A DNA stretch of 52,510 bases from a virus. Location: the IMG/VR virus record IMGVR_UViG_3300009001_002737, positions 1 to 52,510 of that record; one strand, 5' to 3'. Shown one piece after another: positions 2,286 to 28,310 of this stretch (its first letter is position 1; each line of letters starts with the position of its first letter). The notes below the pieces were generated by a model, which was not told where the DNA came from, made no database searches, and worked only from the letters and a program-made list of their open reading frames with translations. Position numbers and translations under genes: made by a program.

Positions 2286-2803
2286 ACGTAATCTCCCCCT
2301 ACAGTGACATTAGAAATATTTTTGTTTTTTAAGCAATCTAAAATAACATCGGCAACTTTATCAACAGAAATTTTTTCTACATCTACATCTTTAACTAATG
2401 GAGTATCCATCCAGCCTATCTTAACATTTACTATTCTACAAGTTTTCTTTACGTGTTGTAGTCTTGTACAAGCATCATCTAAGGCTTTTTTATGAATAGG
2501 ATAAAAGTCAATTTTTTTTATATAATCTATCTTTGAAATATCCGATGCACAACTTCCTATATTAATAATTGTTTTATTTGTAAATTGCCATTCTTTAAAA
2601 AACTCTTCTAATAGATTAACTTGATGAAACCCGCAGTACGCATTATTAATAAACACATCACAATTTAATGCTGTACTAATCCACGGGTCTGGATTAGCAA
2701 TATCGTGATTACTACCTAAATCGAAACCAATACTGTTAGGTATTCTATTATATAACTCTTTACCAAGACCTGATAAATGCCCTGTGATTGCTATTCTTTC
2801 CAT
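2273..2803 (-). CDS. Short-chain dehydrogenase/reductase (SDR)
   Basis: A 176-residue Rossmann-fold enzyme. The N-terminus ITGHLSGLGK is a variant of the SDR cofactor motif TGxxxGxG. An NNAY segment follows in the position of the NNAG motif, a serine-rich strand (IGSCAS) corresponds to the catalytic Ser, and YPIHK supplies the YxxxK catalytic pair. It is shorter than the typical 250 residues, mainly after the catalytic Lys, so it is a compact family member. It probably oxidises or reduces a carbonyl or alcohol with NAD(P). It overlaps the class III aminotransferase upstream and the QueC-like gene downstream by 13 bases each. Ketone formation followed by PLP-dependent amination would be a natural pairing with its upstream neighbour, but that is inference. 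Confidence 0.8.
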   Translation of the reverse strand: MERIAITGHLSGLGKELYNRIPNSIGFDLGSNHDIANPDPWISTALNCDVFINNAYCGFHQVNLLEEFFKEWQFTNKTIINIGSCASDISKIDYIKKIDFYPIHKKALDDACTRLQHVKKTCRIVNVKIGWMDTPLVKDVDVEKISVDKVADVILDCLKNKNISNVTVGGDYVWNR

Positions 2804-3906
2804 CGGTCGTCCAACTGTTTTAATGTTTCAGGCAATGCTTCAAAATATTCTTCGTCTGCGTTTAAAGGTAAAACAAATCTAAATTTAAATGTGTTCTTGC
2901 TAAGTAAAAATACTAAACCATAATTGCCTACTATTTCAAAACCTGCATCTGTAAAATAATCTTTTGCTGTTGATACTATAGTAAAAACATTATCCATATA
3001 CTTGTTTTCTTTAAGTATTTTAATATATTCAAGCATACTTAATACACCTGATAAACAAAAACTATATGTGTGACCATGCAACCAAAAATTGTCGTGCAAC
3101 TGTTTATGTATCTTTTCGTTGTATAATGCTACACTTAAAGGAAAAAATCCTCCTGTAATAGATTTACCCATTACAAAGATATCTGGGTTGACTGGCAAAT
3201 TACTAAATCCAAAAAAGTTTCCTGTTTTGCCTCCACCCATAAAAATATCATCTACTATAACAATTACATCGTGTTTTTCTTGTATTTGATTTATCTTTTC
3301 CCAAACATCATATCCGTACGGCTGTATAGTTTGATAGTGTGGACAAGTTTCGACTAAGATACAAGCAACGTCACTCCAGTCTATTTCCTGTTTCATATCA
3401 GGTGAAATTTTAATTACATCTTGATAAGGATTCATATTATGAAAGCCTTTTTCTAAACCCACGCTTCCGCAAGACAGAGAAAGTAAAGTAGCACCATGAT
3501 AAGCATCATCAAATCCAACTATTTTTTTACGCTTGTTACCTTTTCTCTCATGATAGGCAAATGCAAGTTTAATTGCAACTTCTATACTGTCACTACCTGA
3601 CAATGCAAATACAGATCTGTAGCCGTTGCTCATCTCAAACAACTTATCTGTAAGTTCTACATGAGGACTGTTAATTGTTGGTTCAAAACTTTTAAATAAA
3701 TTATCACCTGTCTCTGGTTTAAATTTTTTTAATCTTTTACAAACTTTATCAACAATCCCGTGATCATCATATCCCAATGGATATGCTGTGTAATGAAGCA
3801 TATGATCTACAACTCTAACACCGTTACGATAAATCCCAAACTTCCAATGCTTGGTATCTACTTCAATATGCTGTTGCTGACCTGGTATTAATCCTTTATA
3901 ATCCAT
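2791..3906 (-). CDS. Class III PLP-dependent aminotransferase (glutamate-1-semialdehyde aminomutase-like)
   Basis: The 371-residue product matches fold-type I class III aminotransferases. SGSDS at 103-107 forms the phosphate-binding loop, AYHG at 135-138 is the ring-stacking aromatic region, VDD at 218-220 holds the pyridine-nitrogen Asp, and K248 in VMGKSITGG is the Schiff-base lysine. All key residues are present, so activity is expected. The usual Asp-Glu after the beta strand is Asp-Asp here. It is somewhat shorter than the usual 420-450 residues. The start codon overlaps the stop of the upstream radical SAM gene (TAATG). The family acts on omega-amino compounds or semialdehydes; an amino-sugar or small amine precursor is plausible given the cluster. 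The exact substrate cannot be read from sequence. Confidence 0.85.
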   Translation of the reverse strand: MDYKGLIPGQQQHIEVDTKHWKFGIYRNGVRVVDHMLHYTAYPLGYDDHGIVDKVCKRLKKFKPETGDNLFKSFEPTINSPHVELTDKLFEMSNGYRSVFALSGSDSIEVAIKLAFAYHERKGNKRKKIVGFDDAYHGATLLSLSCGSVGLEKGFHNMNPYQDVIKISPDMKQEIDWSDVACILVETCPHYQTIQPYGYDVWEKINQIQEKHDVIVIVDDIFMGGGKTGNFFGFSNLPVNPDIFVMGKSITGGFFPLSVALYNEKIHKQLHDNFWLHGHTYSFCLSGVLSMLEYIKILKENKYMDNVFTIVSTAKDYFTDAGFEIVGNYGLVFLLSKNTFKFRFVLPLNADEEYFEALPETLKQLDDRWKE

Positions 3907-5207
3907 TAGATATATTCTCCTAATTCAGGAAAGGTTTTTCTAAAATCGGTTCCTCTTGACTTGTCAAGAGTTTCTAAGTAGTTTACTGTTTGCGGTAACT
4001 TGTCCGACCAATCTTCTGCCATCATGTACTCAATTAGTCCCATCCATCTTGTTTTGCCCATTGGACTTCTATTCCAATTTGTGTTAAATTTCTGTCTGTC
4101 AACAAATACTTCTATTTGTTTTTTTGTAAATTCTTTTAGTTCTGCAGGCATAACTCTAACATTTAAGTAACTTGGGAAATACACAAGATGTGTACTTATT
4201 AAGCCGCCGCCGAATGGCATACTATTTACTTTGCTAAACTGTTGACTTGCTTTCCATTCTGCTAATTCACCAAGGTATGGTGCATTTAATAATTGTACTG
4301 CTGAGGCAATATTAATTCTTACGTTAGCATTACTGTCGTCTAATATTTTTAAATTCTTTGCTATTTCGTTCCATTGACTTGGATATCTAATATAATCATT
4401 CTTTTCACTGTATGCATCTATACTAAAATTAAACGTTACTTCCTTGAAGTGTGACCATAACACAAACAGTTTATCTTCTAATACAGTTCCATTTGAATTA
4501 TATCTTATACAGCAATCTTTTGCGTAACCTTCATCGACCATAAACTGCAAAATATTATAGTGTTCAGGAATCATTAATGGTTCGCCTCCAGCAAAATATA
4601 ATTCCTTTATATTTTTTACTTGATCTTTCATACTATCTAAAAATGTGCCTTTTTTATACCAAGTATAATCAAAGTTTTCATTCCAACTTTGATCACGTTT
4701 TAGATTTTCATTTGTGTATTTAGGATACAATAATTTCCATTCTTTAATCCAACTTGAACTATCATGCGGTGAACACATTGTACATTTTAAATTACACACA
4801 TTCCCCAACCGAAGATCAAAGTAAGGAATATCAACTGGCAGATTTCCTTGCTCGTCAGTCTTTGCAACAATATTATCTATATCTAATCGTTGGTTCCACA
4901 CTTCTGTTTCCCACTGACGTTTGCTAACAATACCTTTTGATTCCTCATAAAAGCATTTACGACAACTTTCAGGTATCTCGTCATTTAACATTTGCAGTCT
5001 TGTTCTACGCATATGTTCACTATTCCATACTTCTTCAATAGTATGATTACGTAAGTTCATAGCAACACCGTCTTGCTTTACAAGACCTGCTGTTTTGTCA
5101 TCTTCGACACCTGCACCAGAAGCATTTGCTGTACAGCAAACACGGACATCGCCATTTGGCCTTGTTGCTAAATGTATCCAAGGCAAAGGACAAAACGTTT
5201 TACTCAT
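3906..5207 (-). CDS. Radical SAM protein with N-terminal twitch domain
   Basis: A 433-residue protein. Its first 90 residues have a SPASM/twitch-like cysteine set (C6, CC at 24-25, C82 and C85) beginning FCPLPWIHL, as in N-terminal-twitch radical SAM proteins. The radical SAM core follows, with C138, C142 and C145 in CNLKCTMC and an AGGEPL SAM-binding motif. The domain order, auxiliary cluster first, is unusual among radical SAM enzymes. A second copy with identical core cysteine numbering is encoded at 15697-17067. The substrate is unknown. Starting at ATG 5207 with an AAGGA Shine-Dalgarno, it overlaps the next upstream radical SAM gene by 8 bases, so two radical SAM enzymes are made in series. 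Confidence 0.85.
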   Translation of the reverse strand: MSKTFCPLPWIHLATRPNGDVRVCCTANASGAGVEDDKTAGLVKQDGVAMNLRNHTIEEVWNSEHMRRTRLQMLNDEIPESCRKCFYEESKGIVSKRQWETEVWNQRLDIDNIVAKTDEQGNLPVDIPYFDLRLGNVCNLKCTMCSPHDSSSWIKEWKLLYPKYTNENLKRDQSWNENFDYTWYKKGTFLDSMKDQVKNIKELYFAGGEPLMIPEHYNILQFMVDEGYAKDCCIRYNSNGTVLEDKLFVLWSHFKEVTFNFSIDAYSEKNDYIRYPSQWNEIAKNLKILDDSNANVRINIASAVQLLNAPYLGELAEWKASQQFSKVNSMPFGGGLISTHLVYFPSYLNVRVMPAELKEFTKKQIEVFVDRQKFNTNWNRSPMGKTRWMGLIEYMMAEDWSDKLPQTVNYLETLDKSRGTDFRKTFPELGEYI

Positions 5208-6198
5208 GCTCTATCCTTTCAAACTGTTTGTTTAGTTTGTCAAAACTTCCACACTGTTTGCCACATTCGAGCATACCACAAGTTGTCCATGTCTTTTCAA
5301 TATTACGGAAAAAGTTTGAATCAAATATTTCTTGCATAGTATTCTTATGCAAATTAGGATATTTTTTAATTTTAACCATGTAATCTAATCTACTGTAACT
5401 ATGCTGTGGTAACCATTCTAAGTCTAACCAACAGCAAGGACTAACATTACCATTTGCACTAATATACATTTGATTATCATTTTTTGCTTTACAACTAATT
5501 GTTGGCAGTTTTTCTTTTTGTGCTTCTTTGGCTGGCTTAATCATATCGCGACTTTTCTTAGATGGAAACAATGTATGTGTAATATTATAATCATCATCTA
5601 ACACATCAAATCTACCATCTTTAAATCTTGTTGTATGCTTAATACTAAAGCCTTTGAAACCTAATTCTTTACTCATTTGTTCACAAGTTTCTACTTGATC
5701 TTCGTTGTGTTCAAACACTAACATATCCCAACGTGCATCTCCGCCTGCATGAATAAAATGTGTAGCATTGTTTATAATTTTATTCCAGTCGGTATTTACT
5801 CTGTATAATGCATGAGTATCTTTTAACCCGTCAATACCAAATACAACTTTTACTTTTTGCTGAGCAAGTTCTTGCCACCATTCTTTTGACCTTCCACTTC
5901 CGTTAGTATGCATTTGTAAAGTCATTCCTTGATTAGTTTCACGCAAGTATTTGAAAATTTCAAGTGTGTCTTTTGCTACAATAGGATCTCCTAAGTTTCC
6001 GCACATATTAAGAAAATGTAATTGACGAATAAAGTCTCTTGGAAACCAATTTACAAAAGTTCCTAAGTCTATTTCTTCTAAATCAATACTGTCTAACAAC
6101 GGTCCTCCGTGGATTCGTCTTGGACACATCGGACAACGTGCTTGGCACTTAGATGTAACTTCTAAATGTATTGATTTAATATCTGTGTAATCGTACAT
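5200..6198 (-). CDS. Radical SAM/SPASM-domain protein
   Basis: The 332-residue product has the CxxxCxxC motif at C18, C22 and C25 (CQARCPMC), close to the N-terminus, with a MCGNLGDP segment in place of the common GGEP motif. The C-terminal third is SPASM-like: an ISC..., a VSPCCWLDL segment after a GNV strand, and a terminal CGMLECGKQCG cluster. This architecture resembles SPASM proteins that modify peptides or sugars. No small precursor-peptide gene is squeezed between the overlapping genes here, so peptide modification has no local support. It is coupled by TAATG to the upstream oxygenase gene and overlaps the downstream radical SAM gene by 8 bases. Confidence 0.85.
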   Translation of the reverse strand: MYDYTDIKSIHLEVTSKCQARCPMCPRRIHGGPLLDSIDLEEIDLGTFVNWFPRDFIRQLHFLNMCGNLGDPIVAKDTLEIFKYLRETNQGMTLQMHTNGSGRSKEWWQELAQQKVKVVFGIDGLKDTHALYRVNTDWNKIINNATHFIHAGGDARWDMLVFEHNEDQVETCEQMSKELGFKGFSIKHTTRFKDGRFDVLDDDYNITHTLFPSKKSRDMIKPAKEAQKEKLPTISCKAKNDNQMYISANGNVSPCCWLDLEWLPQHSYSRLDYMVKIKKYPNLHKNTMQEIFDSNFFRNIEKTWTTCGMLECGKQCGSFDKLNKQFERIEHE

Positions 6199-6818: not shown

Positions 6819-7417
6819 TTTATCCCACTAATCATGTACCTTGTATACTTAGGTAATACAATTTCCTCTACACTATAATTTTTAGCACTGACAGACTCAG
6901 CAAGTTCTCCTGTACTGTTTACACAGTTAATGTGTTCTTCAAGTTCGAAATAATTGTTGCTTTGCATAACATACATAGTACCTTGAGGTATGTTATCAAA
7001 CCATTGTTGTAATTTGACTTTATCTACGTGTTCGCAACTTGTATTAATCACAATATCTGCATTATACTTATCTGTACACATATCTGCTGTTCGAGCAGTA
7101 AATAATCCCTGCATTTCTTGATTCTTATTAATAGTTCTTGCAGTTTCCTCAACTGTTGGGTCTATATCAACACTTGTAATATGTTCTATGTCTAAAAATT
7201 TACTGTTAAATAGCATTGAAGCAAGTACTCCATTCCAGCCGCCGTGAATAACAATTTTAGGTTTAGCATTTAAGTCATAATGATCTTCTAAATGTTTTAC
7301 TAACATTTCTTTACTTTTTAATTGTCCGCCCCAAAAACTTTCAAGAATACGATCTCTATCTTTGCTGTTGCGAATAGCGTCCATCCAAAACTTAATATCT
7401 TTAATATCTATTTTCAT
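6815..7417 (-). CDS. Class I SAM-dependent methyltransferase-like protein
   Basis: The 200-residue product looks like a Rossmann-type methyltransferase. A beta1 strand with a GGWNGVLAS loop near residues 58-66 corresponds to the SAM-binding motif I, an acidic strand end (SVDID) follows about 20 residues later for ribose binding, and a VINTSCEHV segment marks motif IV. Aromatic residues after it (SNNYF) may line the substrate pocket. No DNA-methylase motif (DPPY or PCQ) is present, so nucleic-acid methylation is unlikely. It is joined to flanking genes by ATGA overlaps, between a radical SAM gene and an oxygenase gene. O- or N-methylation of a sugar or small metabolite is the likely role, but the target is inferred only. 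Confidence 0.7.
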   Translation of the reverse strand: MKIDIKDIKFWMDAIRNSKDRDRILESFWGGQLKSKEMLVKHLEDHYDLNAKPKIVIHGGWNGVLASMLFNSKFLDIEHITSVDIDPTVEETARTINKNQEMQGLFTARTADMCTDKYNADIVINTSCEHVDKVKLQQWFDNIPQGTMYVMQSNNYFELEEHINCVNSTGELAESVSAKNYSVEEIVLPKYTRYMISGIK

Positions 7418-8373
7418 ATTTTTGCCTTTGGTATCTTGCTATCAGCACTACTTACACATGTCGGTGTAATACAAACCATAGGTTTGTCAAATAATTTAAA
7501 TCCATCAGTAATAGTTCCTAATGGTTGATCGTGACAACTATAACTGCGTTTTACTTCATTGCCTCTGATAATACAACTTTGATAACCACTGTTACATTTC
7601 CAACCTTTGAATTTGTTAAATCCATATGCATTTAATCTTTCTGCTTGATCGATTTCGTATTCTATTCCTTTATCGTCTTGTAGACGCACTTGCTTGTATT
7701 CTTGTTCGCTATCGTTTTGTAAGATTTGTCTTTGTTCTTCCGTGTAACCATCGACCACAAATGACGCAGTAGGATCTGATTGCGGCTTAAGAGTAACGTG
7801 CAACCCTCTTTGAATGAATCGTTGACTTCTTTCATAATACTCCTCCCATAGACTTGGAACCATTACTTGATTGATAGTAATAAACACTCCGTTGTCCTGT
7901 AAATATAATAACTTGTCACCAAACTCTTTTTCATTAGCAAATTCTGCATGAAAACTTGCAGTAATACTTCTTCTATCCATTACATCGGTAATATCTAACC
8001 AACGCTTCCACCAAGACTTTGACGGACTGCAATTACTTGTCATGTGTATACTTAAATAATTACTTTTATAATCTTCGTAGTGTTCTATTAATTTTAACAA
8101 GTCTTTGTATGCTGTAGGTTCGCCACCGCTGAAACTAAAATGAAATTTGTCATATCCGTTGGCTATTGCTTGACGTTTTATTTCATCAACTGTGTTTTTG
8201 TATGTTTGTAAATCATAATAGTCAGGCTTGTCTGTATTAGCATATGGCCAACAATAAGAACATTTGTAATTACAAAAACGTCCAATAATCCAACTTACCG
8301 AAAACAAATTGTTGTCCAGCATTGTCTTTTGGCCTAACTTAACAATATTATCAAATGGAATCTTTATAGTCAT
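7414..8373 (-). CDS. Radical SAM protein, paralog of the 161-1060 product
   Basis: From the ATG at 8373 the protein has 319 residues. It carries CxxxCxxC at C34, C38 and C41 (CNYKCSYC) and an SGGEPT motif. The C-terminal region repeats the layout of the 161-1060 protein, with a KFKGWKC motif followed by more cysteines near the end (SYSC, VCITPTC). I prefer ATG 8373 to the TTG at 8376 because AAGGAA sits seven bases upstream of the ATG. It overlaps the upstream glycosyltransferase-like gene by 23 bases. The same pairing, a glycosyltransferase-like gene just ahead of a radical SAM gene, recurs at 15697-17951. Confidence 0.85.
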   Translation of the reverse strand: MTIKIPFDNIVKLGQKTMLDNNLFSVSWIIGRFCNYKCSYCWPYANTDKPDYYDLQTYKNTVDEIKRQAIANGYDKFHFSFSGGEPTAYKDLLKLIEHYEDYKSNYLSIHMTSNCSPSKSWWKRWLDITDVMDRRSITASFHAEFANEKEFGDKLLYLQDNGVFITINQVMVPSLWEEYYERSQRFIQRGLHVTLKPQSDPTASFVVDGYTEEQRQILQNDSEQEYKQVRLQDDKGIEYEIDQAERLNAYGFNKFKGWKCNSGYQSCIIRGNEVKRSYSCHDQPLGTITDGFKLFDKPMVCITPTCVSSADSKIPKAKI

Positions 8374-9040
8374 CAAATTGTTCCTTCAACCATTTAAAAT
8401 TATTAATCATATAAAGCATTTCTTTATCGTCTTTGTGTGCTTCCCCAAAATGCTTTCCTACTTTTGCTCCATGAATTGCATATTTGCCAAACGGTATATC
8501 TTCTCCTACAGAGCACCAAATATCTAAACGTTTTTCTGTTTCTTCATCTACTTGACCTTTTATAGTTTTGCTGGCAAGTTTTACGCATTCTCTAAATCCA
8601 CTTTTCCAAGCACTAAACTCGTCTGTGTTAAAAGCAGTAATATTTGAAATTTCAGGCATTGCTTTAAACTTACTACTAATACTTGTTGTCATGTCGGGCA
8701 CAGTGACATCCATATTCACCGTGAGTGACCTTGGTAATAACTTAACACCACCGTACCCATATTCCAAGTCATTAATTGGATTTATACTTCGCCATACATG
8801 GACTGTTTCTAAATCCCACTCGGAAACCTCGTAATCAAATGTAAACCCTCTTGACAATTCTGCATCACCGTCTACAACCCAAAACATTTTTGTAAAGCAT
8901 TTTTTAGCCGCGGCAATATGTGCCTGATGTATGCCTTCTACATCCTTAACACGTTTAGCCATTGGAAACTGATCTTTAAGTATTAGCCAATTATTATCCG
9001 CGTTAGGTTCGCCATAACTTATAAACACTATATCATACAT
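8351..9040 (-). CDS. Glycosyltransferase-like phage protein (GT-A type, DGD motif)
   Basis: This 229-residue protein opens with DIVFISYGEPNAD and has VVDGDAEL around residues 55-62. A DxD-type acidic motif after a hydrophobic strand is the usual nucleotide-sugar/metal site of GT-A glycosyltransferases. The protein at 17064-17951 shares this opening (IIFLSYDEPNAEENW), the AKRV..VEG stretch, the DGD site and a later ...W+.GFREGVK segment, so the two are clear paralogs. The family is poorly characterised; I assign glycosyltransferase by pattern, not by a matched subfamily. It overlaps the SGNH gene upstream by 13 bases. Its likely role is transfer of a sugar to a glycan or to a virion protein, which is inferred. 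Confidence 0.6.
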   Translation of the reverse strand: MYDIVFISYGEPNADNNWLILKDQFPMAKRVKDVEGIHQAHIAAAKKCFTKMFWVVDGDAELSRGFTFDYEVSEWDLETVHVWRSINPINDLEYGYGGVKLLPRSLTVNMDVTVPDMTTSISSKFKAMPEISNITAFNTDEFSAWKSGFRECVKLASKTIKGQVDEETEKRLDIWCSVGEDIPFGKYAIHGAKVGKHFGEAHKDDKEMLYMINNFKWLKEQFDDYKDSI

Positions 9041-9810
9041 TCTACTTTATCTCTAATCTTGTCTACTACCTCTTGATGAATTAACGGACCGTCATGTGCA
9101 TTATCTCTTGCTCTGTCTGTGTTTTCAAGTTTTAAAACAGATACCATTTCTTTACTATATTTGGTCATAAAGTCGCCGCCAAAGGTCCAATTAAAAACGG
9201 GAACGCCTAAAGCATTCCATAAATTAGTTACACTATTAATATGTAAATTGTTTTCATATTCTAACTGTCCGTCTTCTGCTATCCAACGATTAAAATACCA
9301 ATCACTATCATAATTAGTTCCTGGTATCCAATTACTAACATTTCTATCTTCTAAACGTAAACCATCTGACTCTAAATATCCAAAACTTTTTCTTGTTGCT
9401 TGTGGCCACTGATTAATAACTGCACGTGGTTTTACAAATTTATTTTTTACAAATAACTGTGTGTTAAAATTTACAATATCAGGACCTGTACCTGCTTTTG
9501 CTAAATTTAAAATATCTATACCTAATTGTTTACCTAAAACATTACACCATATTTCGTTTTCATATAATCCAACACCTTCAGTATAACTACAACCAAGAAC
9601 AAGAATGTAATCGTTTAGAGTATCTAATTCACGTGTTCTGTAACCTAAACTATTAAATTCGTAGAATAGTTTGTCGTGGGTATTAAAGTATTTCCAAGAA
9701 GATTTATTGTGGTCATTATAATTTTCAGAGTCGTCTCCACAATACCACTGTAGTGTTTTATCAGCAACTTCTTTAAAATATAATAATGGCTCAGTTTTTA
9801 AATATTTCAT
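9028..9810 (-). CDS. SGNH/GDSL-type hydrolase-like protein
   Basis: The 260-residue product has the block I nucleophile segment LGCSYTEG with S75, a block II-like NLAKAGTGPD (conserved Gly) and a terminal NAHDGPLIHQ region that can supply the Asp-His pair. These match SGNH hydrolases, which remove or transfer acyl groups on sugars and lipids. The first 60 residues precede block I and are unusual in length for the family; they may form a separate cap or binding region. No signal peptide is visible, so it acts in the cytoplasm. It is coupled by ATGA to the dehydrogenase gene upstream. A role in acetylating or deacetylating a glycan precursor is inferred. A second SGNH protein is encoded at 12558-13238. 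Confidence 0.72.
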   Translation of the reverse strand: MKYLKTEPLLYFKEVADKTLQWYCGDDSENYNDHNKSSWKYFNTHDKLFYEFNSLGYRTRELDTLNDYILVLGCSYTEGVGLYENEIWCNVLGKQLGIDILNLAKAGTGPDIVNFNTQLFVKNKFVKPRAVINQWPQATRKSFGYLESDGLRLEDRNVSNWIPGTNYDSDWYFNRWIAEDGQLEYENNLHINSVTNLWNALGVPVFNWTFGGDFMTKYSKEMVSVLKLENTDRARDNAHDGPLIHQEVVDKIRDKVECMI

Positions 9811-10994
9811 CTTGTATTTCCGTAGTGTATAACCAAGTACTTAGGATTTTTTTCTACTTGTCTCCAAGGATCTATAATAACACTATCTGTTGAATAGTCT
9901 AAATACATTTCAGGGTGACACATTAAAACTATGCCACCAACAGAAGCACTGCCGCTTGGCATCTCACTTGCAAGAGGATCGATATAAATTGACGATTCTC
10001 CTAATTCTTTAATATAATGATCAACAAGTAGTGCATAACTACCGTCGACATAACTTACACCTGGTTTATAAGAAATACCATTTAAGATAATACTACCACC
10101 GTATACATTTTTCATTTCAATAACATACTTTGCAAGGTTTTTTGCTTGAACTTCTCTTGCTGTCATAATACTATCGAATATATCGTATTCTAAGTTTAAT
10201 TCTTTTGCCATATAACGCAATGCAATATTATCTCTCGGATGACAACTACCTCCGTCTCCCATGCCTGCTGTCATATATGCAGGACTCATGATACGTTGTG
10301 TACTTTCTGCTAATGCTTTTGTTACAACATCAACGTTAATATTACCTTGGCGTTGTGCAACATCTTGCATCATGTTTACAAGACTTAACTTTGTACTAAT
10401 AAATGTGTTGTAAAAAACTTTAATGCACTCACACTCGTCATATGTTCCTATAACATAACGAGGAAAGTTATCCATAATAGATTCATAAAATTTACGTAAC
10501 TGTTTTGCATCGCCCGTCTCACTACCATCGTCTGTGCCAATCATAACCATCTCAGGGTTAACCATATCCCAACCAACAGTCCCCATTGCAATTAAATAAG
10601 GATTATAAACAAAACGTGTATTAGTTACAAGTGGAACAAATTCTCGGCGTGTAGTGCCTGGTAATACAGTACTAATAAGGACGAGTAGTTGTTTTTTGTT
10701 CATATACTTGTTTGCTTCTTTTAGCACATCAATTACAATACTGTAGTCAAAATCTTTAGGCTCCAGATGACTTGTAGGACGTCTACCATCGTAATCGGGA
10801 TGATGTGGTGTTGGTACTGCAACAAAAACAATATCTGTACCTGTTACACAATCTTTAATAGATTCTGTTGATTGAATGTGCTTACTACTAAAAGGAGAAA
10901 TATCATAGCCTTTTACTGTATGTCCTTTTTTAACTATTTCTTCTGCACATGGCTCGCCTAACTTGCCCACACCAATAAAACCAATTGTACTCAT
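9807..10994 (-). CDS. UDP-glucose/GDP-mannose 6-dehydrogenase family protein
   Basis: A 395-residue enzyme of the family that oxidises nucleotide sugars to uronic acids in two NAD-dependent steps. The N-terminal Rossmann motif is GFIGVGKLG. STVLPGTT at 108-115, the EC(E)CIKVFYN helix with K192 and N196, and catalytic C251 in GGSCHPRDN are all present, so it should be active. The N-terminal and central dimerisation domains are complete, while the C-terminal domain is rather short. It sits between an SGNH hydrolase and a glycosyltransferase-like gene. It would supply an acidic sugar to the cluster. The exact nucleotide (UDP or GDP) and sugar cannot be told from sequence alone. Confidence 0.85.
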   Translation of the reverse strand: MSTIGFIGVGKLGEPCAEEIVKKGHTVKGYDISPFSSKHIQSTESIKDCVTGTDIVFVAVPTPHHPDYDGRRPTSHLEPKDFDYSIVIDVLKEANKYMNKKQLLVLISTVLPGTTRREFVPLVTNTRFVYNPYLIAMGTVGWDMVNPEMVMIGTDDGSETGDAKQLRKFYESIMDNFPRYVIGTYDECECIKVFYNTFISTKLSLVNMMQDVAQRQGNINVDVVTKALAESTQRIMSPAYMTAGMGDGGSCHPRDNIALRYMAKELNLEYDIFDSIMTAREVQAKNLAKYVIEMKNVYGGSIILNGISYKPGVSYVDGSYALLVDHYIKELGESSIYIDPLASEMPSGSASVGGIVLMCHPEMYLDYSTDSVIIDPWRQVEKNPKYLVIHYGNTR

Positions 10995-11941
10995 TTCATT
11001 TCCTTAATTAATTGTTCATAACCGCCGTGCTGTAAAATACTGCTCGGAACTTTGCTGATGTCGAACCTAATATCCTTTAGTATATTATAGTTTCTTTCTG
11101 CTTTTTCTGCAACCAAATTATATAATTTTTGATAATCTTTATCTACAACACTTTCAACTTGATCTAATAACAGTTTTAATCGTAATTTATTATCTTTTAC
11201 ACTATCAAAACTATAATCAAATATTTCATCATATAACTCAAAACCTAATTTTTGTAATGCTTTGTGATAATTAGGTACACTCCAAACTAAAAACGGTTTT
11301 TTAAAATATACAGGTGTATATGTTTTTTCTGTTGGAAAAATGGTATCCATAGTAGACTCGCTCACAAGACTCATAAAACTTTCGTGAAACTCTGGTGGGA
11401 AAGATCCGTATTGTTCTGTAGATTGTGCATACTCGGGATCAATAATTAGCCGTTCTTGACGCCAATGCTTGAAATCGTAATCAATATTACATTCATTCCA
11501 ACTGATTGCACCTTTTGAAATCAACTTTCTTTTTGCCAATTGATCAAGCAGTTCACAACGAAAATACCAAGGTTTGTTATTTAAGTTTACGTATGCCTTT
11601 GTGAATTTATTATTATTTGCAACGTGTCCCCATTTATCTAATTCATAATAAGTTTTTGTAGGCCAAAAACTTGTCCAATGTGTTATGTTAGTGCCTGGAT
11701 GAAAAGAGTTGCTTGTAGGAAATCCGCCACAAACAAACTCAACAGTATTAGAACTAACAGTAATTTCTTTTTTGATTTTTCTAAGGATATTTTCATTATC
11801 AGGATTATCCCAACCCATTATTGCATATTCTTCTGCACCTAAAACCCTTATCAGTGCATTAGAATTATTTTGGATCTTATCCAATAATTTTTCAAGGCTC
11901 CAAGACCTATGCCATAATAATAGATTAATAATTTCACTCAC
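10991..11941 (-). CDS. Conserved phage protein, putative glycosyltransferase-like
   Basis: The 316-residue product is not assigned to a known family with certainty. Its C-terminal half has FPTEKTYTPVYFKKPFLVW followed by an ...LQKLGFELYDEIFDYSFD segment. The 14682-15707 product has a matching stretch (FSEKTNNAMIYKRPFI, then KKLGFKTFDKWW), so these are distant paralogs. This SEKT..KPFI pattern recalls the C-terminal nucleotide-sugar domain of some glycosyltransferases, which is an analogy only. Translation appears to start at GTG 11941 because the nearby ATG is immediately followed by TGA in its frame. No Shine-Dalgarno is seen, and a one-mismatch late-promoter box lies five bases before the GTG. 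It is the first gene of the leftward accessory operon. Confidence 0.55.
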   Translation of the reverse strand: MSEIINLLLWHRSWSLEKLLDKIQNNSNALIRVLGAEEYAIMGWDNPDNENILRKIKKEITVSSNTVEFVCGGFPTSNSFHPGTNITHWTSFWPTKTYYELDKWGHVANNNKFTKAYVNLNNKPWYFRCELLDQLAKRKLISKGAISWNECNIDYDFKHWRQERLIIDPEYAQSTEQYGSFPPEFHESFMSLVSESTMDTIFPTEKTYTPVYFKKPFLVWSVPNYHKALQKLGFELYDEIFDYSFDSVKDNKLRLKLLLDQVESVVDKDYQKLYNLVAEKAERNYNILKDIRFDISKVPSSILQHGGYEQLIKEMK

Positions 11942-11964: not shown

Positions 11965-11971
11965 ATAAATA
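11965..11971 (+). promoter_or_regulatory. Late-promoter-like box (ATAAATA) for the plus-strand operon
   Basis: The plus strand carries ATAAATA followed by five bases and an in-frame ATG at 11977. It is back to back with the leftward variant box at 11947-11953, giving a divergent pair within about 36 bases between start codons. No Shine-Dalgarno precedes 11977. With T4-like spacing the transcript would begin at the A of that ATG, so the aminotransferase mRNA is predicted to be leaderless. Confidence 0.5.
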
Positions 11972-11976
11972 TGTTT

Positions 11977-12561
11977 ATGTTTGAAACGGTAAAAGAATTT
12001 GAAAAACAAATAGCACAGTACTATAATGCTCCTTTTGCAGTAGCAACAGATAGTTGCACACACGCAATTGAACTTTGCTTAAGATATGATAATCCACAAA
12101 ATAAACTTACTATTCCAACCAAGACTTATATTAGTATTCCCTTTACATTAATAAAACTTGGGTTAGACTGGAGTTTTGTAAATGGCGAATGGGTAGGATA
12201 CTACTTTATCGGCGGAACAAGAATTATCGATGGTGCAGTAAACTTTGCAAAAGACAGTTACATCAAAGGGCAATTAATGTGTTTGAGTTTTCAACATAAA
12301 AAAATGTTAAGCCTTGGTCGTGGCGGCGCAATTTTATGTCCTACTAAACAAGATTACGAAATACTCAAACAGATGGCATATGATGGTCGTACTGACGATA
12401 AACCCTGGGCAGAACAAAATATTAAACAAGTAGGATATCATTATTACATGACTCCTGAAACTGCTCAACTTGGTATTGAAAAATTAAAAACAGTAAAAGC
12501 AGATAAACTATGGACCAGTGATGACTATCCTTATCTTCCAAGTATGGAGGTATTTAGGTGA
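11977..12561 (+). CDS. DegT/DnrJ/EryC1/StrS-type aminotransferase, short form
   Basis: From ATG 11977 the protein has 194 residues, about half of the usual 370. It retains the DegT features of the large PLP domain: an ATDSCTHAIELCL segment near 23-35, D85 in IIDGA as the pyridine-nitrogen Asp, and K109 in SFQHKKMLSLGRGG as the Schiff-base lysine. The C-terminal small domain is missing. The reading frame is intact, and the gene is coupled by GTGA to the next one, so this is a compact gene and not a broken fragment. An upstream in-frame ATG at 11971 overlaps the promoter box, so 11977 is preferred. The family aminates keto-sugars or keto-cyclitols on nucleotide carriers. Pairing with the amidinotransferase downstream suggests amination before guanidination. 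Confidence 0.8.
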   Translation: MFETVKEFEKQIAQYYNAPFAVATDSCTHAIELCLRYDNPQNKLTIPTKTYISIPFTLIKLGLDWSFVNGEWVGYYFIGGTRIIDGAVNFAKDSYIKGQLMCLSFQHKKMLSLGRGGAILCPTKQDYEILKQMAYDGRTDDKPWAEQNIKQVGYHYYMTPETAQLGIEKLKTVKADKLWTSDDYPYLPSMEVFR

Positions 12562-13238
12562 GACTCTTTACATTCGGGTGTTCGTATACTGAATACATTT
12601 GGCCTACATGGAGTGATATCATAGCACAAGATTTAGATATAGAAAATCATAACTATGCTAAGGCAGGAATGGGCAATCAAGGTATTGCTTGTCGTACAAT
12701 TGAAGCAAACGAAAAACATAATTTTAATGACAAAGATCTTGTTTGTATTTTATGGAGTAGTTGGCAAAGGGTAGATTTACTAAAAGACGGAAAGTGGATT
12801 ACCGAAGGTAATATACTTAACAGTGATTATTATGACGATGAATATCTAAGTAAACACTGGAGTGAAGAAAACGACATTGTTAGGAACAGAACAGCAATAT
12901 TACACACCAATGCATATTTAAAATCATTAAATGTAGATCTATTTCAAGGTCACAAAGATAAAGTAGACAATAGTTTACCAGGATTCCAAAACATCTTTCC
13001 AATGTCAAAAAATGTTTATAGAACAGATTCTCATCCAAGTGTTTTAGAACATTTAAGTTTTGTTGAAAAAGTTATATACCCTTATCTCGGATATAAATTA
13101 AAAGATTCTACTAAACATTGGTGTAGAGATATGGAAATTAAAATACAACAGATTGTAGGTGAAAATACACGAATGAGTAACTTAGAATTAGAAGATCAAA
13201 TATTAGAACATTGGTCTGGAAGAGTATCGTATGTCTAA
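12558..13238 (+). CDS. SGNH hydrolase-like protein
   Basis: The 226-residue protein begins RLFTFGCSYTE, with S9 in the block I nucleophile position almost at the N-terminus. NYAKAGMGNQG at 33-43 matches block II/III, and DSHPS with D157 and H159 matches the C-terminal catalytic pair. The start is GTG 12558, overlapping the stop of the previous gene (GTGA), with a strong GGAGG Shine-Dalgarno seven bases upstream. It is shorter than the SGNH protein at 9028-9810 and lacks that protein's N-terminal extension. The family hydrolyses or transfers acyl esters. It probably acts on the same product as its operon neighbours, the aminotransferase and amidinotransferase, which is inferred. Confidence 0.72.
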   Translation: MRLFTFGCSYTEYIWPTWSDIIAQDLDIENHNYAKAGMGNQGIACRTIEANEKHNFNDKDLVCILWSSWQRVDLLKDGKWITEGNILNSDYYDDEYLSKHWSEENDIVRNRTAILHTNAYLKSLNVDLFQGHKDKVDNSLPGFQNIFPMSKNVYRTDSHPSVLEHLSFVEKVIYPYLGYKLKDSTKHWCRDMEIKIQQIVGENTRMSNLELEDQILEHWSGRVSYV

Positions 13239-14199
13239 AAATGAGTGGGGTCAATTAAGAAAAGTAATTGTTGGTATTGCAGATAACGCAAAGATTCCTA
13301 CGGATATAGATATAAGTTTGCGTTGTGTAAACTTTGCTGATAAGGCAGACGAAAGCGAAATACAAAAAGGGCCTTATCCACAACAAGTAATAGATGAAGC
13401 AAACGAAGATTTAGAAACTTTTGTAGATTTTTTAAAAGGAGAATCAGTTGAAGTTTTACGTCCTGATGCTACTGATTGCAACTATTATAATTATTGTCCT
13501 CGAGACTCAGTATTTGTACACGATAAACTAACACTTGCAACTCCTATGCCTATTAGAGCAAGAAAAGGAGAATGGAGGGCGTTTGAAAAACATTTAAATA
13601 ATCCTCGCAATATTCGATGTTATCATGAAAGTAACTTATACAATACAGATTGTATTGGCAATAAAGATATACTTGCACTTACAGATTTTGAACCTGCGTT
13701 TGATGCCGCTAATATTATTCGTGCTAATGAAGATGTATTATATCTTGTAAGTAATAGCGGAAACGAATTAGGTGCAACACTGTTGCAAAATGCATTAGGT
13801 GACAGGGCAAAAGTACACTTACTAAAAGATGTTTACAGTTATATGCATATTGATAGTACTGTTGCTTTTTTACGTGAAGGATTATTACTTGCTAATCCAA
13901 GTAGAATAAAAAACAAAGAAGATTTGCCAGAACCTTTTAGAAGTTGGGATATATTATGGTGTCCAGATCCAGTAGACATCGGACATTATCCTGGTTGGTG
14001 TAATGCAAGTACATGGATAAACATGAATCTTTTTAGTGTAAATACTAAGTTAGTTGCACTTGAAAAACATCAAGAGCCACTACGTAAAGCCTTAGAAGCA
14101 CAAGGTATTGAATGTGCTATGTTGCCAATGAGGCATCAACGAACACTTGGCGGTGGATTTCACTGCGTAACATTGGATATTGAGAGAAATGTGGCATAA
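13231..14199 (+). CDS. Amidinotransferase (glycine / inosamine-phosphate amidinotransferase family)
   Basis: The 322-residue product matches the pentein-fold amidinotransferases that move the amidino group of arginine to an amine. EWGQLRKVIVG at 5-15 is the typical start, CPRD at 89-92 is a conserved substrate-binding element, EPAFDAANIIR at 154-164 carries catalytic D158, H206 in HIDST is the catalytic His, and C312 in GGGFHC is the nucleophile. All of the catalytic triad is present. It could make guanidinoacetate, but the DegT-type aminotransferase at the head of this operon resembles the StrS/StrB pairing that builds guanidino-cyclitols. An 8-base overlap with the SGNH gene and a GGAAGAG Shine-Dalgarno support the ATG start. 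Confidence 0.86.
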   Translation: MSKNEWGQLRKVIVGIADNAKIPTDIDISLRCVNFADKADESEIQKGPYPQQVIDEANEDLETFVDFLKGESVEVLRPDATDCNYYNYCPRDSVFVHDKLTLATPMPIRARKGEWRAFEKHLNNPRNIRCYHESNLYNTDCIGNKDILALTDFEPAFDAANIIRANEDVLYLVSNSGNELGATLLQNALGDRAKVHLLKDVYSYMHIDSTVAFLREGLLLANPSRIKNKEDLPEPFRSWDILWCPDPVDIGHYPGWCNASTWINMNLFSVNTKLVALEKHQEPLRKALEAQGIECAMLPMRHQRTLGGGFHCVTLDIERNVA

Positions 14200-14680
14200 A
14201 GGTTACCTCCCTAAACTATGGGGTGAAGGTTATAAAAGTTTTGATTATGTAAGACAACCTATTACAGGTGCAGAGTCTACTACTTGGCGTAAGCAAGGGT
14301 ATACTCATAATACAACTACAGGCAAAATGTATGATAGCAGAAATCCTATGCCTGATTGGACTACTGGTGTTGCAAATTTAATTAATTTAAAAAATCCAGG
14401 ATTTGTTTTTTATAGAATGGATACACTTGATATTATGCCAGAACACGTTGACCATTTTACTACTTACTGTAAAGTGTTTAATCAAGACCGTAAAAATGTT
14501 AGACGTGCTATTGTGTTTTTGGAAGATTGGAAGCCGGGACATTATTTCCAAATTGATAACTCTGCTATTGTAAATTATAAAGCAGGAGAATATGTATTAT
14601 GGCATCCTGATGTTCCCCATGCCGCAAGTAACATAGGCATAGAACCAAGATATACTTTACAAATTACTGGCACTTATTAA
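14189..14680 (+). CDS. 2OG-Fe(II) oxygenase-like protein
   Basis: From ATG 14189 the product has 163 residues. The triad is H86 and D88 in PEHVDHF and H144 in DVPHAAS, with R154 in the expected 2-oxoglutarate position. A GEYVLW strand precedes the distal His as in the cupin fold. A longer start at TTG 14180 exists, but the ATG is preferred and has GAGAG just upstream. It overlaps the amidinotransferase by 11 bases. The first 60 residues are not recognised. In the operon it is well placed to hydroxylate or otherwise oxidise the aminated or guanidinated product. The substrate is unknown. Confidence 0.75.
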   Translation: MWHKGYLPKLWGEGYKSFDYVRQPITGAESTTWRKQGYTHNTTTGKMYDSRNPMPDWTTGVANLINLKNPGFVFYRMDTLDIMPEHVDHFTTYCKVFNQDRKNVRRAIVFLEDWKPGHYFQIDNSAIVNYKAGEYVLWHPDVPHAASNIGIEPRYTLQITGTY

Positions 14681-14681
14681 A

Positions 14682-15707
14682 ATGTTTAAGCAAGATATTT
14701 TCTGGGGCAATTTGCCTGTTAAAACTACAAAGTTAGGAGGAATGTTTACACAACTATTTGAACATTGGTATCCGGAAAATCCATTTATTATCTTTACTGG
14801 CACTAATAAAATAAACTTTGATAAATTTCCTCTAACTCCTAAATTAGTTAAAAAACTTAAAAAATTAGAAATATATCTTTATGAACCATTAAGTTTGTAT
14901 GAAAAAGGTAAACAACATAATAGAGGATTTTTTAGTGAATTCAAAGGTGGGGAAACACTTCGTGCTGATGAATTAGATAGTATCGAAGAGTTTAGTAAAA
15001 GACTTAATGCTTCTATTACTGTTTATACTTGTAACTACAATGTACAAAAACATATTACAGATTATCCATTTGAACTAAAGTGTTTTGATATTTTCTTACG
15101 TAATCAATTTAATGGTGGTTCTATTACTGTAACAAATTCTATAGAAAAACGTTTTATTTGTCCTAATTGGCGTTACAGTAATCATAGAGAATTAATTATA
15201 AATCATATAAAAGACACGCCAGGTTACTATAGTTGGGCATTTAGTGATCCACCATTATCGATAGATGTTAAATTAAAAAGCATCAACTCTGATTTTAAAA
15301 AATGGCCAGAAGGAAATGTGTCAAGTCCCCAGGGTTTGCATGAATACTATTTGAAATCGTTTTGTGTAGTTGCTAATGAAACACGGTTTTACGAACCTAC
15401 AGGAAATTTCAGCGAAAAAACAAATAATGCTATGATATATAAAAGGCCTTTTATTTGTGTTGCACCTCCGTTTACTTTAGAGTATATTAAAAAATTAGGT
15501 TTTAAAACATTTGATAAATGGTGGTCTGAAGAATACGATACTGAAACTAATCATGATAAAAGAATACAGATGATTTTCGATACATTAGATAGTATAAAAG
15601 AAAAAAGTATATACGATTTACAACTTATTTTAAATGATATGCAAGATGTATTAGATTGGAATCAAAATCTTGCTAATAAAATTTTTAAAAATAAAATTAT
15701 ACTTTAG
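14682..15707 (+). CDS. Conserved phage protein, distant paralog of the 10991-11941 product
   Basis: This 341-residue protein shares its C-terminal half with the product of 10991-11941. Both have an SEKT-type motif, a KRPFI or KKPFL strand, and a KKLGF-aromatic-acidic segment followed by a helix-rich tail. The N-terminal half differs. No established enzyme motif is seen. Glycosyltransferase activity is possible by analogy, since both genes sit in glycan-type operons, but the function is unassigned. It starts one base after the previous stop codon without a clear Shine-Dalgarno. It is the last gene of the plus-strand operon and converges with the 15697-17067 gene, overlapping its end by 11 bases, which leaves no room for an intergenic terminator. 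Confidence 0.55.
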   Translation: MFKQDIFWGNLPVKTTKLGGMFTQLFEHWYPENPFIIFTGTNKINFDKFPLTPKLVKKLKKLEIYLYEPLSLYEKGKQHNRGFFSEFKGGETLRADELDSIEEFSKRLNASITVYTCNYNVQKHITDYPFELKCFDIFLRNQFNGGSITVTNSIEKRFICPNWRYSNHRELIINHIKDTPGYYSWAFSDPPLSIDVKLKSINSDFKKWPEGNVSSPQGLHEYYLKSFCVVANETRFYEPTGNFSEKTNNAMIYKRPFICVAPPFTLEYIKKLGFKTFDKWWSEEYDTETNHDKRIQMIFDTLDSIKEKSIYDLQLILNDMQDVLDWNQNLANKIFKNKIIL

Positions 15708-17067
15708 ATTGACAACTTAAATAAAATTCTTCCAATTCAGGAAACACTTCGGTCATTTTAATACCAGTACGACTATCATATTCATTAAACCAAGTATAGA
15801 AATTTTTATGCCCATTAAGTAACTTAGCATCGTCATAATTTGTTTTACGCATATAATCTACTACCCTACGAAATCGTTCGTATTCTAACAAACTAAATTT
15901 TGTTCTATCAGCATCATTAATATTTTCTGCTATAAATTTTAAATGCTTTTCCATATATGGCATAAAGGTATCTTTAGGCAATATATTCATATCAAATTGA
16001 ATAGGGTCTCTAAGATATGGTGTATCAAATCTTATATTTTGCCATTGTGTTTTATTATTTTTATTGTACTTACTACGCCACTCGAGTATCTTTTTCAGTA
16101 ATTTATCAAAACTTGTGACCGCAAATAAATTAAATGTAATCATAAATGTTACAGGGTATCCAAGATTTTTAAGATAATAATCAAGATTACGTTCCCATAG
16201 GCCTAAATCTAATCCCCTACGAGTATAACTTGCTCTTGGCCCCCAAGTATCAATGCTTGTATATAATTTGAAACTTCTAATACAATTTTTTTCTTTAAGT
16301 AGTTTAATTCTTTCAACAAGTTTTTGCACAAGTTTTTCTTTTACTCCCATATTACTATTAAGTTCGATTTGAATATGTGGTTTAGGATTTTGTTCAAGTT
16401 CGTCGAATAGCCTCCAAGTACTCTTATGCATTAAAGGTTCACCTCCCGTGATACGTAAGATATTAAGAGTCTTGGAGACTTCCGGCCACCACTTCCACCA
16501 TGCATCAACATATGGATTTGTTTGTTCATCAAATAATTCAAGCCAGTCAATGTCGTTGCGATGCACAGTACTGTCTTTGTATGGTCCATGCTTTTTTATT
16601 TCGTTGAAATAACTTGTGCTAAATTTAGGATGGCAGTATCCACATTTAAAATTACATTCATTTGAAAAATTTACTTCTATATACTCAGGATTAATATCAT
16701 AATCCCACGGGTTACTTTTAATTTCTTCTATACGTTCGGGTTTATATATACTTGCAGTTTTGATGTGTCGATCACTAATATAATCTTTACCCATACATTC
16801 AATGTTCCAACAATATTGACACCCGCTCGGCTTTTCCCCTTCAAGCATTTGCTTACGCTCTTGTTTCTTCTGAGGCGTATTATGAAGTTGACTTGGATTA
16901 TCAATTAATCCTTCAAGTGGAATTTTGTGAGGTGCTGGATGATAACAACTGTGTGTTTCACCTGTTTGCAAATATATAGTTACATGATGCCATTTAGCCA
17001 AGCAGAACGTAGGAGATATCTTATCAATCTCCGGCATTATTTTTTTAATTTGATCTACTTCACTCAT
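15697..17067 (-). CDS. Radical SAM protein with N-terminal twitch domain, paralog of 3906-5207
   Basis: A 456-residue protein with N-terminal cysteines at C22, C41, C83 and C86, then the radical SAM core with C138, C142 and C145 in CNFKCGYC and a TGGEPLM motif. The core cysteines fall at the same residue numbers as in the 3906-5207 protein, and the domain order is the same, so the two share one architecture. The first segment, FCLAKWHHV, replaces FCPLPWIHL. The substrate is unknown. It is coupled by ATGA to a glycosyltransferase-like gene upstream, as the other pair at 7414-9040 also is by overlap. It ends convergently with the plus-strand operon. Confidence 0.85.
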   Translation of the reverse strand: MSEVDQIKKIMPEIDKISPTFCLAKWHHVTIYLQTGETHSCYHPAPHKIPLEGLIDNPSQLHNTPQKKQERKQMLEGEKPSGCQYCWNIECMGKDYISDRHIKTASIYKPERIEEIKSNPWDYDINPEYIEVNFSNECNFKCGYCHPKFSTSYFNEIKKHGPYKDSTVHRNDIDWLELFDEQTNPYVDAWWKWWPEVSKTLNILRITGGEPLMHKSTWRLFDELEQNPKPHIQIELNSNMGVKEKLVQKLVERIKLLKEKNCIRSFKLYTSIDTWGPRASYTRRGLDLGLWERNLDYYLKNLGYPVTFMITFNLFAVTSFDKLLKKILEWRSKYNKNNKTQWQNIRFDTPYLRDPIQFDMNILPKDTFMPYMEKHLKFIAENINDADRTKFSLLEYERFRRVVDYMRKTNYDDAKLLNGHKNFYTWFNEYDSRTGIKMTEVFPELEEFYLSCQSKV

Positions 17068-21977: not shown

Positions 21978-23456
21978 TTATACTTTCAAGAATGTTTCCA
22001 CTAACTTTTCTTCGTGTCTATCGTTAGACTCTAATGCAATACCTACTAATTCGCCTTCATTTGCTTTTTGTGCTGTACCATTAGCGCCTACATAAAGTTT
22101 GTCGCCTTTGTTAACTGGTCCTATGACTCTTACCGGCACACGACCTTTAAGTGCAACTGCTTGTCCTTCAGACTCTGCATTCATTAAGTATGCAGGCTTT
22201 GCACTAATAACGCCTATTGGCATTCCTGTCATCGGGCACCAAGTCGCTTCATTATCTTCGTCTGTACCAATTGTCATAATTGTACCTACCGGATATTGAT
22301 CATCTGTTGTATATTTTTCTGCTAAGTCAGCATATCTTGCTGTAGTTGCAGTACCATTAAACAAATTAGCATTTATATTACCCGAACTATCTCTTACTGC
22401 AACAGTATCGTTAGTTGCTGAAGTACTTGCAGTTCTATTGTTCGATCCAACAACTAAAGCATTTGCCGCCGTTGCTGTACCGTTGAATAGAGTTGCATAA
22501 ACTTCTTTGAATTTATTTGCACTTGTACCGATATCAAATGTATTGTTAGCACCAGGAACGATACCTTCTGCTTTAATTTGCACAGGTTCTGTTGATTGTG
22601 CTTGTGCATTATCAACTTTGAATCTAATTACAGTTCCTACTTCATTTGAAATAACTGCTTGAGTTCCGTTTTCAATTGATACACGTAAATCATTTGAATC
22701 ACCTACGGTAAATCCTGCATCACTAAATCTAACAATTTCTGAAAATGTTGATTCTTGTCCTGGAATACTTACTACATATTCACTTGCTGATCTGCCGCCT
22801 AATTTTTCTGAGTTAGTTGCAGTACCCCAAAACCTATGAGCAGTTGATGTTACACCTTGCTGTGCATTAGTTGTATTTTTTAGGGTCATACCTTGGTGAA
22901 TGACATCAAACCCAGTTATGGCATTGTCGGGGTCGCTTGAGTCAATTGTAAAGTCTGACGCTGAGAGTACTATAACTACTTCATCGTTAATTGTACCTTT
23001 GATCACTGTTCTTTGAACATTACTGATATCTCTAATTGAATCTGTTACAAATGATGTTACTGTATCACCTTGTGATTGTGGACCAATTAAAACAAATCCT
23101 GCTCCGGTGTTTGCATACAGTTGATTGTTTGCATTATCCCACCAAAAATCACCTTCAGTTAACCCTGACGGTTGACTTGCACTTACTTCTGCTCCACCAG
23201 TTGTTCTAAATTTTGTACCGTCATAAAATTTTAGTTTGCTTGTGCCCGAATCAAACCAAATTTGACCTCTAATTGCTCTGGATGGTGCGTTAGCACTTGA
23301 AAAGTTTTCAAGTATATGAACGAAATTTTCGTTCTGGATTTCACCGTATCCAGCATAGTTTTTACCAACAAGTTTTACATCAGTAGTTTGATCGACTGTA
23401 CCGTCTTCTACTACTGCAATCTGTGACCCATCAGTTCTATTAATAATATATGCCAT
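21978..23456 (-). CDS. Tail fibre protein with C-terminal peptidase G2-like (autoproteolytic) domain
   Basis: The 492-residue product begins with an approximately 130-residue module (MAYIINRTDG, a GYGE..NENFVHILENF stretch, then GQIWFD) shared with the next two fibre genes. The middle is Asn/Thr/Ala-rich repeat sequence with GTAT.. elements. The last 120 residues have LAEKY, YPVGTIM, ALKGRVPVRVIGPV and GDKLYV, resembling the self-cleaving intramolecular chaperone (peptidase G2-like) domain of phage fibres. This would drive trimer folding and then be cut off. A Shine-Dalgarno (AGGGG) and a late-promoter-like box precede it. It probably recognises the host surface. Confidence 0.8.
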   Translation of the reverse strand: MAYIINRTDGSQIAVVEDGTVDQTTDVKLVGKNYAGYGEIQNENFVHILENFSSANAPSRAIRGQIWFDSGTSKLKFYDGTKFRTTGGAEVSASQPSGLTEGDFWWDNANNQLYANTGAGFVLIGPQSQGDTVTSFVTDSIRDISNVQRTVIKGTINDEVVIVLSASDFTIDSSDPDNAITGFDVIHQGMTLKNTTNAQQGVTSTAHRFWGTATNSEKLGGRSASEYVVSIPGQESTFSEIVRFSDAGFTVGDSNDLRVSIENGTQAVISNEVGTVIRFKVDNAQAQSTEPVQIKAEGIVPGANNTFDIGTSANKFKEVYATLFNGTATAANALVVGSNNRTASTSATNDTVAVRDSSGNINANLFNGTATTARYADLAEKYTTDDQYPVGTIMTIGTDEDNEATWCPMTGMPIGVISAKPAYLMNAESEGQAVALKGRVPVRVIGPVNKGDKLYVGANGTAQKANEGELVGIALESNDRHEEKLVETFLKV

Positions 23457-23480
23457 AGTTAATAACCCCTTTATTGTATG

Positions 23481-23487
23481 TATTTAT
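23481..23487 (-). promoter_or_regulatory. Late-promoter-like box (ATAAATA) upstream of the 21978-23456 fibre gene
   Basis: The minus strand reads GATAAATAC between the stop of the upstream fibre gene and the ATG at 23456. Predicted T4-like +1 is near 23475, leaving an 18-base leader that includes the AGGGG Shine-Dalgarno. This is the leadered class of these boxes. Confidence 0.55.
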
Positions 23488-23489
23488 CG

Positions 23490-28303: not shown

Positions 28304-28310
28304 TATTTAT
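28304..28310 (-). promoter_or_regulatory. Late-promoter-like box (ATAAATA) overlapping the giant gene stop
   Basis: The minus strand reads AATAAATAC. The TAA stop codon of the giant gene (28309-28307) is embedded in the box. Predicted +1 is near 28298, with a 12-base leader that holds TAGGAT before ATG 28286. Confidence 0.55.

Follow-up and report, generated by a model that had tools for sequence, protein, structure and literature searches.

The analysed window (the whole stretch of 52,510 nucleotides of the viral record) contains a cassette of five tightly packed plus-strand genes (positions 11971–15707), embedded in an island that otherwise lies on the minus strand. The cassette encodes (i) a half-size DegT/StrS-type PLP aminotransferase of ~194 aa, referred to here as mini-DegT (11977–12561), (ii) an SGNH/GDSL-hydrolase-like protein (12558–13238), (iii) a predicted StrB1-clade amidinotransferase of 322 aa (13231–14199), (iv) a small Fe(II)/2-oxoglutarate (2OG) oxygenase of 163 aa, OX (14189–14680), and (v) a glycosyltransferase-like protein, whose gene is the last of the plus-strand operon (14682–15707). 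"Operon" is a fair label, because the five genes overlap or abut, with successive junctions of -4, -8, -20/-11 and +1 bp. The open reading frames and their packing agree with the preliminary description, which had assigned an aminotransferase and an amidinotransferase to the plus strand of one operon-like cluster. It had placed the two genes two apart, which proved wrong, as only the SGNH-like gene separates them, and it made no mention of a third partner, the 2OG-type oxygenase encoded immediately downstream of the amidinotransferase.

The remaining two cassette genes had no match in Pfam or PHROG. The SGNH-like protein was recognised by eye from a GCSYT motif, and its gene lies outside the conserved core (18 of 84 loci, all from a single phage lineage). 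The glycosyltransferase-like protein, assigned by inspection, forms one family with the product of 10991–11941 (family 5, found in 47 loci). The island adjoins tail-fibre and other virion structural genes (21978–27667, minus strand; PHROG matches to tail fiber, tail protein and virion structural families) and carries a gene for a UDP-glucose/GDP-mannose dehydrogenase-type enzyme (9807–10994, minus strand; Pfam PF00984, 6.8e-18, and PF03721, 1.8e-15; PHROG 9148, 7.4e-95). Five radical SAM genes also lie in the island (161–1060, 3906–5207, 5200–6198, 7414–8376 and 15697–17067); two of them strongly match the twitch-domain radical SAM model NCBIfam NF033640. Two further genes are Asp/Arg-hydroxylase-like, and another (2791–3906) encodes a class-III (BioA/ArgD-like) aminotransferase, which might be an additional enzyme that generates an amine. 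Genes of the radical SAM and hydroxylase types outnumber the recognised glycosyltransferases of the island, several of which were called by eye. A single open reading frame of 4959 aa (28307–43186) was detected between the baseplate and tail-fibre genes of the window.

The amidinotransferase passed no Pfam or NCBIfam model and its best PHROG is of unknown function; its identity was taken from PDB, PHROG and tree evidence. A phmmer search of the PDB retrieved StrB1 (1bwd; 4.9e-63, 216 bits), human AGAT (2.4e-36, 128 bits), HsvA (125 bits) and SxtG (113 bits), and a profile built from 19 phage sequences gave the same leading match (StrB1 266 bits, HsvA 189, AGAT 177, SxtG 163). The full catalytic triad reported earlier (D158, H206, C312) was confirmed: it aligns with the AGAT/StrB1 triad and is invariant in 26 non-redundant phage relatives, as are the arginine-site residues D92, D208, R225 and S260. 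In maximum-likelihood trees, for which the StrB1 and AGAT rows were copied from the PDB-search alignments, the phage clade (100/100) grouped with StrB1 and relatives from actinomycetes or Robbsia, apart from AGAT (support 98/95 in one tree and 100/100 in the second).

The phage enzyme is ~40% identical to StrB1, the L-arginine:inosamine-phosphate amidinotransferase of the streptomycin pathway, and shares with it the triad, the motifs CPRD, FDAAN and WxxMNL, and a flap that is one residue shorter and contains a conserved Tyr. The pentein fold, triad and arginine-site residues are also common to AGAT, AmtA and CyrA, but AGAT forms a separate clade with MPRD and FDAAD motifs and a D-P-N-P-M flap (D298–M302) that governs substrate binding, and the flaps of AmtA and CyrA, unlike that of the phage enzyme, are of the D-x-x-P-x type (PMC4887976). 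In the phage flap, Y-S-Y-M, the Tyr and small residue are as in StrB1 (Y-A-S-T), whereas the Met corresponds to AGAT M302 and is kept in most phage members. Judged by sequence, the phage amidinotransferase belongs to the StrB1 (inosamine-phosphate) clade and not to the glycine-using AGAT clade, since neither the AGAT grouping nor the D-P-N-P-M 300-flap was found. The clade, motifs and flap comparison make arginine the likely amidino donor.

The mini-DegT open reading frame (11971–12561) encodes 196 aa, with ATG 11977 the likely start because the relatives begin with MFE..V. Full-length DegT enzymes comprise ~370 aa. Consequently, the earlier assignment to the DegT/StrS-type aminotransferases stands as regards family membership, for which a Pfam match (PF01041, DegT_DnrJ_EryC1, in two stretches; E 1.5e-16), the PLP lysine and the fold all speak, but not as regards a full-length enzyme. 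The PLP-lysine region (SFxxxKxxxxGxGG), the Asp and the phosphate-binding Ser/Thr are all present: K111, D87, S106 and T30 (196-aa numbering from 11971) never vary in 34 aligned rows, and K111, which aligns with Lys188 of AHBA synthase, is the likely catalytic PLP lysine. The two-domain chain with its NYRM motif is lacking, which defines mini-DegT as a reduced variant: the C-terminal domain and a central segment are missing, and the usual G-N-Y-R-M is replaced by G-Y-H-Y-Y-M, with H157 and Y159 in place of N and R.

An AlphaFold (AF2) model of mini-DegT (pLDDT 92.9, pTM 0.90) was compared with the PDB using Foldseek. The best 50 matches were DegT-family proteins, mostly sugar aminotransferases (TMq 0.64–0.75; TMt 0.33–0.41, a low target score being expected given the lost C-terminal domain and the incomplete centre). 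They included GDP-perosamine synthase, ArnB, WbpE and AtS13, as well as AHBA synthase and BtrR. Mini-DegT thus shares the PLP-lysine region and large-domain fold of the DegT/DnrJ/EryC1/StrS sugar aminotransferases, but differs from them in length, its lost C-terminal domain, its shortened centre and the N/R to H/Y exchange. The pattern of conservation points to aminotransferase activity; whether this activity is exerted on a sugar is uncertain because of the missing parts and the altered H157/Y159 positions. The best viral model match was a longer, 316-aa protein, and a plasmid search with mini-DegT gave no match. Single-sequence searches recovered only near relatives, and an alignment-based search was needed for the wider set.

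OX (open reading frame from TTG 14180, used for the 166-aa numbering; 163 aa from 14189) displays the features of Fe(II)/2OG oxygenases, i.e. the HxD...H motif, the 2OG-binding Arg and a double-stranded beta-helix. H89-x-D91, H147 and R157 are conserved in 27 rows of sequences that are only 24–80% identical, and 9 of 19 relatives match PF05118 (Asp_Arg_Hydrox). A sequence-only search of the PDB with the OX family was uninformative and a fold search was used instead: the AF2 model (pLDDT 91.8) matched 2OG dioxygenases, including P4H, plus some other double-stranded beta-helix (cupin-type) proteins. OX may oxidise an alcohol to a carbonyl.

For analysis of gene neighbourhoods, 80 viral loci, the window and the Synechococcus phage S-SCSM2R were dereplicated at 90% amidinotransferase identity, which left 26 loci. 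In this set, the members of which are related so that counts of loci are not independent trials, mini-DegT accompanies the amidinotransferase in 25 of 26 cases (24 by ORF calls, plus L016, which lies on the same contig as L084, where DegT was recovered) and OX likewise in 25 (no more than eight genes away in 24 loci, and nine genes away in L067), while the next most frequent neighbour family occurs in 13, and the UDP-glucose/GDP-mannose dehydrogenase-type neighbour is found in 13. In a second, partly overlapping set mini-DegT was present in 71 and OX in 72 of 77 loci, and 67 of 80 mini-DegT loci carried the amidinotransferase. The pairing of aminotransferase and amidinotransferase is far above chance. 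A stronger point than these counts is the survival of the trio through changes of gene order (DegT-AT-OX, DegT-OX-AT, and OX-DegT-n genes-AT) and on different phage backbones; the baseplate protein of the window is nearest to those of jumbo myoviruses (Phosso, Atu_ph07, Rak2/CBB-like). The searches with mini-DegT and with the amidinotransferase each gave at least 570 viral stretches among the matches listed, and the module is widespread in aquatic phages, including that of the window.

The trio also resides in a second context, amid tandem GT25-like genes (PHROG glucosyltransferase, 1.3e-41) and, in some loci, a NodU/TobZ-type carbamoyltransferase gene (Pfam, 1.7e-51). In S-SCSM2R, genes 302–310 encode glycosyltransferases, mini-DegT, a radical SAM protein, OX and the amidinotransferase (gene 309, same family, 63%). 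This phage carries a second, divergent amidinotransferase gene (gene 266; L250:5354–6247) adjoining KdsA/KdsB and glycosyltransferase genes and followed by two 2OG oxygenase genes. Mini-DegT is absent from some amidinotransferase loci (L055, L065, L208 and L223); L055 and L065 also lack OX, their amidinotransferase genes lying among uncharacterised and cupin-like genes, and in L055 a dTDP-glucose-dehydratase-like gene is located just upstream. Conversely, mini-DegT loci without the amidinotransferase hold other sugar genes, e.g. for a hexapeptide-repeat transferase (L133) or a GDP-mannose dehydratase (L137).

Phage amidinotransferases as such are already known. In 2010, the Campylobacter phages CP220 and CPt10 were reported to carry a putative glycine amidinotransferase and five radical SAM genes (PMC2853527), AGAT papers are cited by a marine AMG survey, glycine amidinotransferase is listed in a study of karst-lake viruses, and the S-SCSM2R record contains the annotation "inosamine amidinotransferase". 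As in the window, the amidinotransferases of CP220/CPt10 and S-SCSM2R are encoded near glycosyltransferase and radical SAM genes, but the Campylobacter phage enzyme is only ~25% identical, belongs to another clade and occurs without mini-DegT; comparison with relatives of this type added little. S-SCSM2R has the same family with mini-DegT and OX nearby, yet the trio is described neither in its record nor in PMC2853527. The literature searched contained no paper on the trio, a half-size DegT or a phage guanidino-sugar, and searches for phage inosamine or S-SCSM2 found nothing relevant.

The preliminary description had likened the pair to the amination and amidino transfer that build guanidino-cyclitols in streptomycin synthesis. 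The resemblance holds as regards the StrB1 clade, the PLP lysine within a sugar-aminotransferase fold, the conserved pairing and the loci, which are often rich in glycosyltransferase or nucleotide-sugar genes. It does not extend to the literal cyclitol route, which we dropped as unsupported: the annotated neighbours in the window and the S-SCSM2R stretches included no recognisable inositol dehydrogenase, inosamine kinase or phosphatase, although unannotated ORFs or host enzymes might supply these steps. The phage system further differs from that of StrB1 in its half-size partner aminotransferase and the attached 2OG oxygenase, which probably takes over the role of the oxidation step. A streptomycin-like cluster of Streptomyces NBC_00853 (DegT, a StrR-like regulator, a StrB1 homologue with 71% identity to StrB1, and a GMC oxidoreductase) has the same three kinds of activity as the phage trio. 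StrB1-type genes, too, are thus seen paired with a DegT aminotransferase gene (L252).

A genome scan for cellular relatives gave only two matches, owing to its narrow search patterns. Cellular relatives of the StrB1 clade at 38–43% are found with NRPS, peptide-ligase or aaRS-like genes; that of Robbsia, for instance, has a peptide-ligase neighbour. These parallels cut both ways, so membership of the clade is in itself no proof of a sugar acceptor. On an Amycolatopsis plasmid (L251:4375–6549), a single annotated gene covers both a StrB1-clade amidinotransferase and an aminoacyl-tRNA-ligase-related domain, and a gene for a TauD-type dioxygenase is located next to it. At an Actinophytocola locus (L092:5877–11041), the amidinotransferase is accompanied by a carbamoyltransferase, two 2OG oxygenases and an NRPS condensation domain; this locus, similar in make-up to the phage cassette, may be a cluster for a guanidino natural product.

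From the gene identities, active-site conservation, clade, fold and co-inheritance computed here, we infer the following order of steps. OX would turn a C-OH group into a carbonyl; mini-DegT, using PLP and probably dimeric, would transaminate the carbonyl to a primary amine; and the StrB1-clade enzyme would shift an amidino group from arginine via Cys312 to this amine, yielding a guanidine and ornithine. The acceptor would most likely be a sugar or cyclitol, whether in free form, linked to a nucleotide or as part of an existing glycan. Glycosyltransferases, the UDP-sugar dehydrogenase and, in other phages, the carbamoyltransferase might then build the guanidino unit into a decorated glycan carried by tail proteins of the virion or by the surface of the host. 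No phage is known to carry out such a modification. We regard the chances as even that the trio is a phage-borne hydroxyl-to-guanidine module acting on a sugar.

The same enzymes could instead modify a peptide or protein, acting with the radical SAM/SPASM and Asp/Asn-hydroxylase-like proteins of the island; the guanidino residue would then be borne by a ribosomal peptide, by a virion protein or by a small molecule derived from an amino acid. Such a role would suit the five radical SAM, two hydroxylase-like and one class-III aminotransferase genes of the window island, the Asp_Arg_Hydrox matches of OX relatives, the NRPS, peptide-ligase and aaRS-like fusion neighbours of the cellular enzymes, and the radical SAM genes, again five, of the amidinotransferase-bearing Campylobacter phages (PMC2853527). 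We nevertheless consider it rather doubtful, given that GT25/carbamoyltransferase contexts often lack radical SAM genes yet keep the trio, that the structural neighbours of mini-DegT are sugar or AHBA/cyclitol aminotransferases, and that no precursor peptide was identified, albeit without a systematic search.

It is improbable that the phage enzyme is an arginine:glycine (or lysine/polyamine) amidinotransferase whose product is a small metabolite (guanidinoacetate, homoarginine or a guanidino-polyamine) and whose gene lies amid unrelated cargo. The substrates of the family are generally flexible (PMC4887976) and most phage members have Met at the M302 position, but the clade, motifs and shorter flap follow StrB1 and not AGAT, AmtA or CyrA, on which grounds simple AGAT activity was judged unlikely, and co-inheritance with mini-DegT and OX would be hard to explain. 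Mini-DegT could also be a PLP enzyme of a different kind, i.e. a dehydratase or epimerase, or else a regulator, with the host supplying the amine and the phage enzyme only guanidinylating it; its half length, its altered G-Y-H-Y-Y-M motif and the amidinotransferase loci devoid of mini-DegT are consistent with this. Given the invariant PLP Lys, Asp, Ser and Thr and a fold that matches aminotransferases, we hold such a role to be quite improbable.

Taking the sugar-modifying module further, we tentatively propose, as a possibility to which we give well below even weight, that aquatic phages from two or more unrelated lineages make guanidinylated sugars by a self-contained three-enzyme module that includes an unusually small sugar aminotransferase of ~194 aa, and display them on virions or the surface of infected cells as positively charged glycans. 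The module is directly testable, because it is common and present in a cultured cyanophage. If this reading is right, the half-size aminotransferase would reveal how small a part of the DegT fold suffices, and phages would possess their own aminoglycoside-style chemistry. The strongly basic substituent thereby added to a glycan could protect virions, change adsorption or modify the surface of the host.
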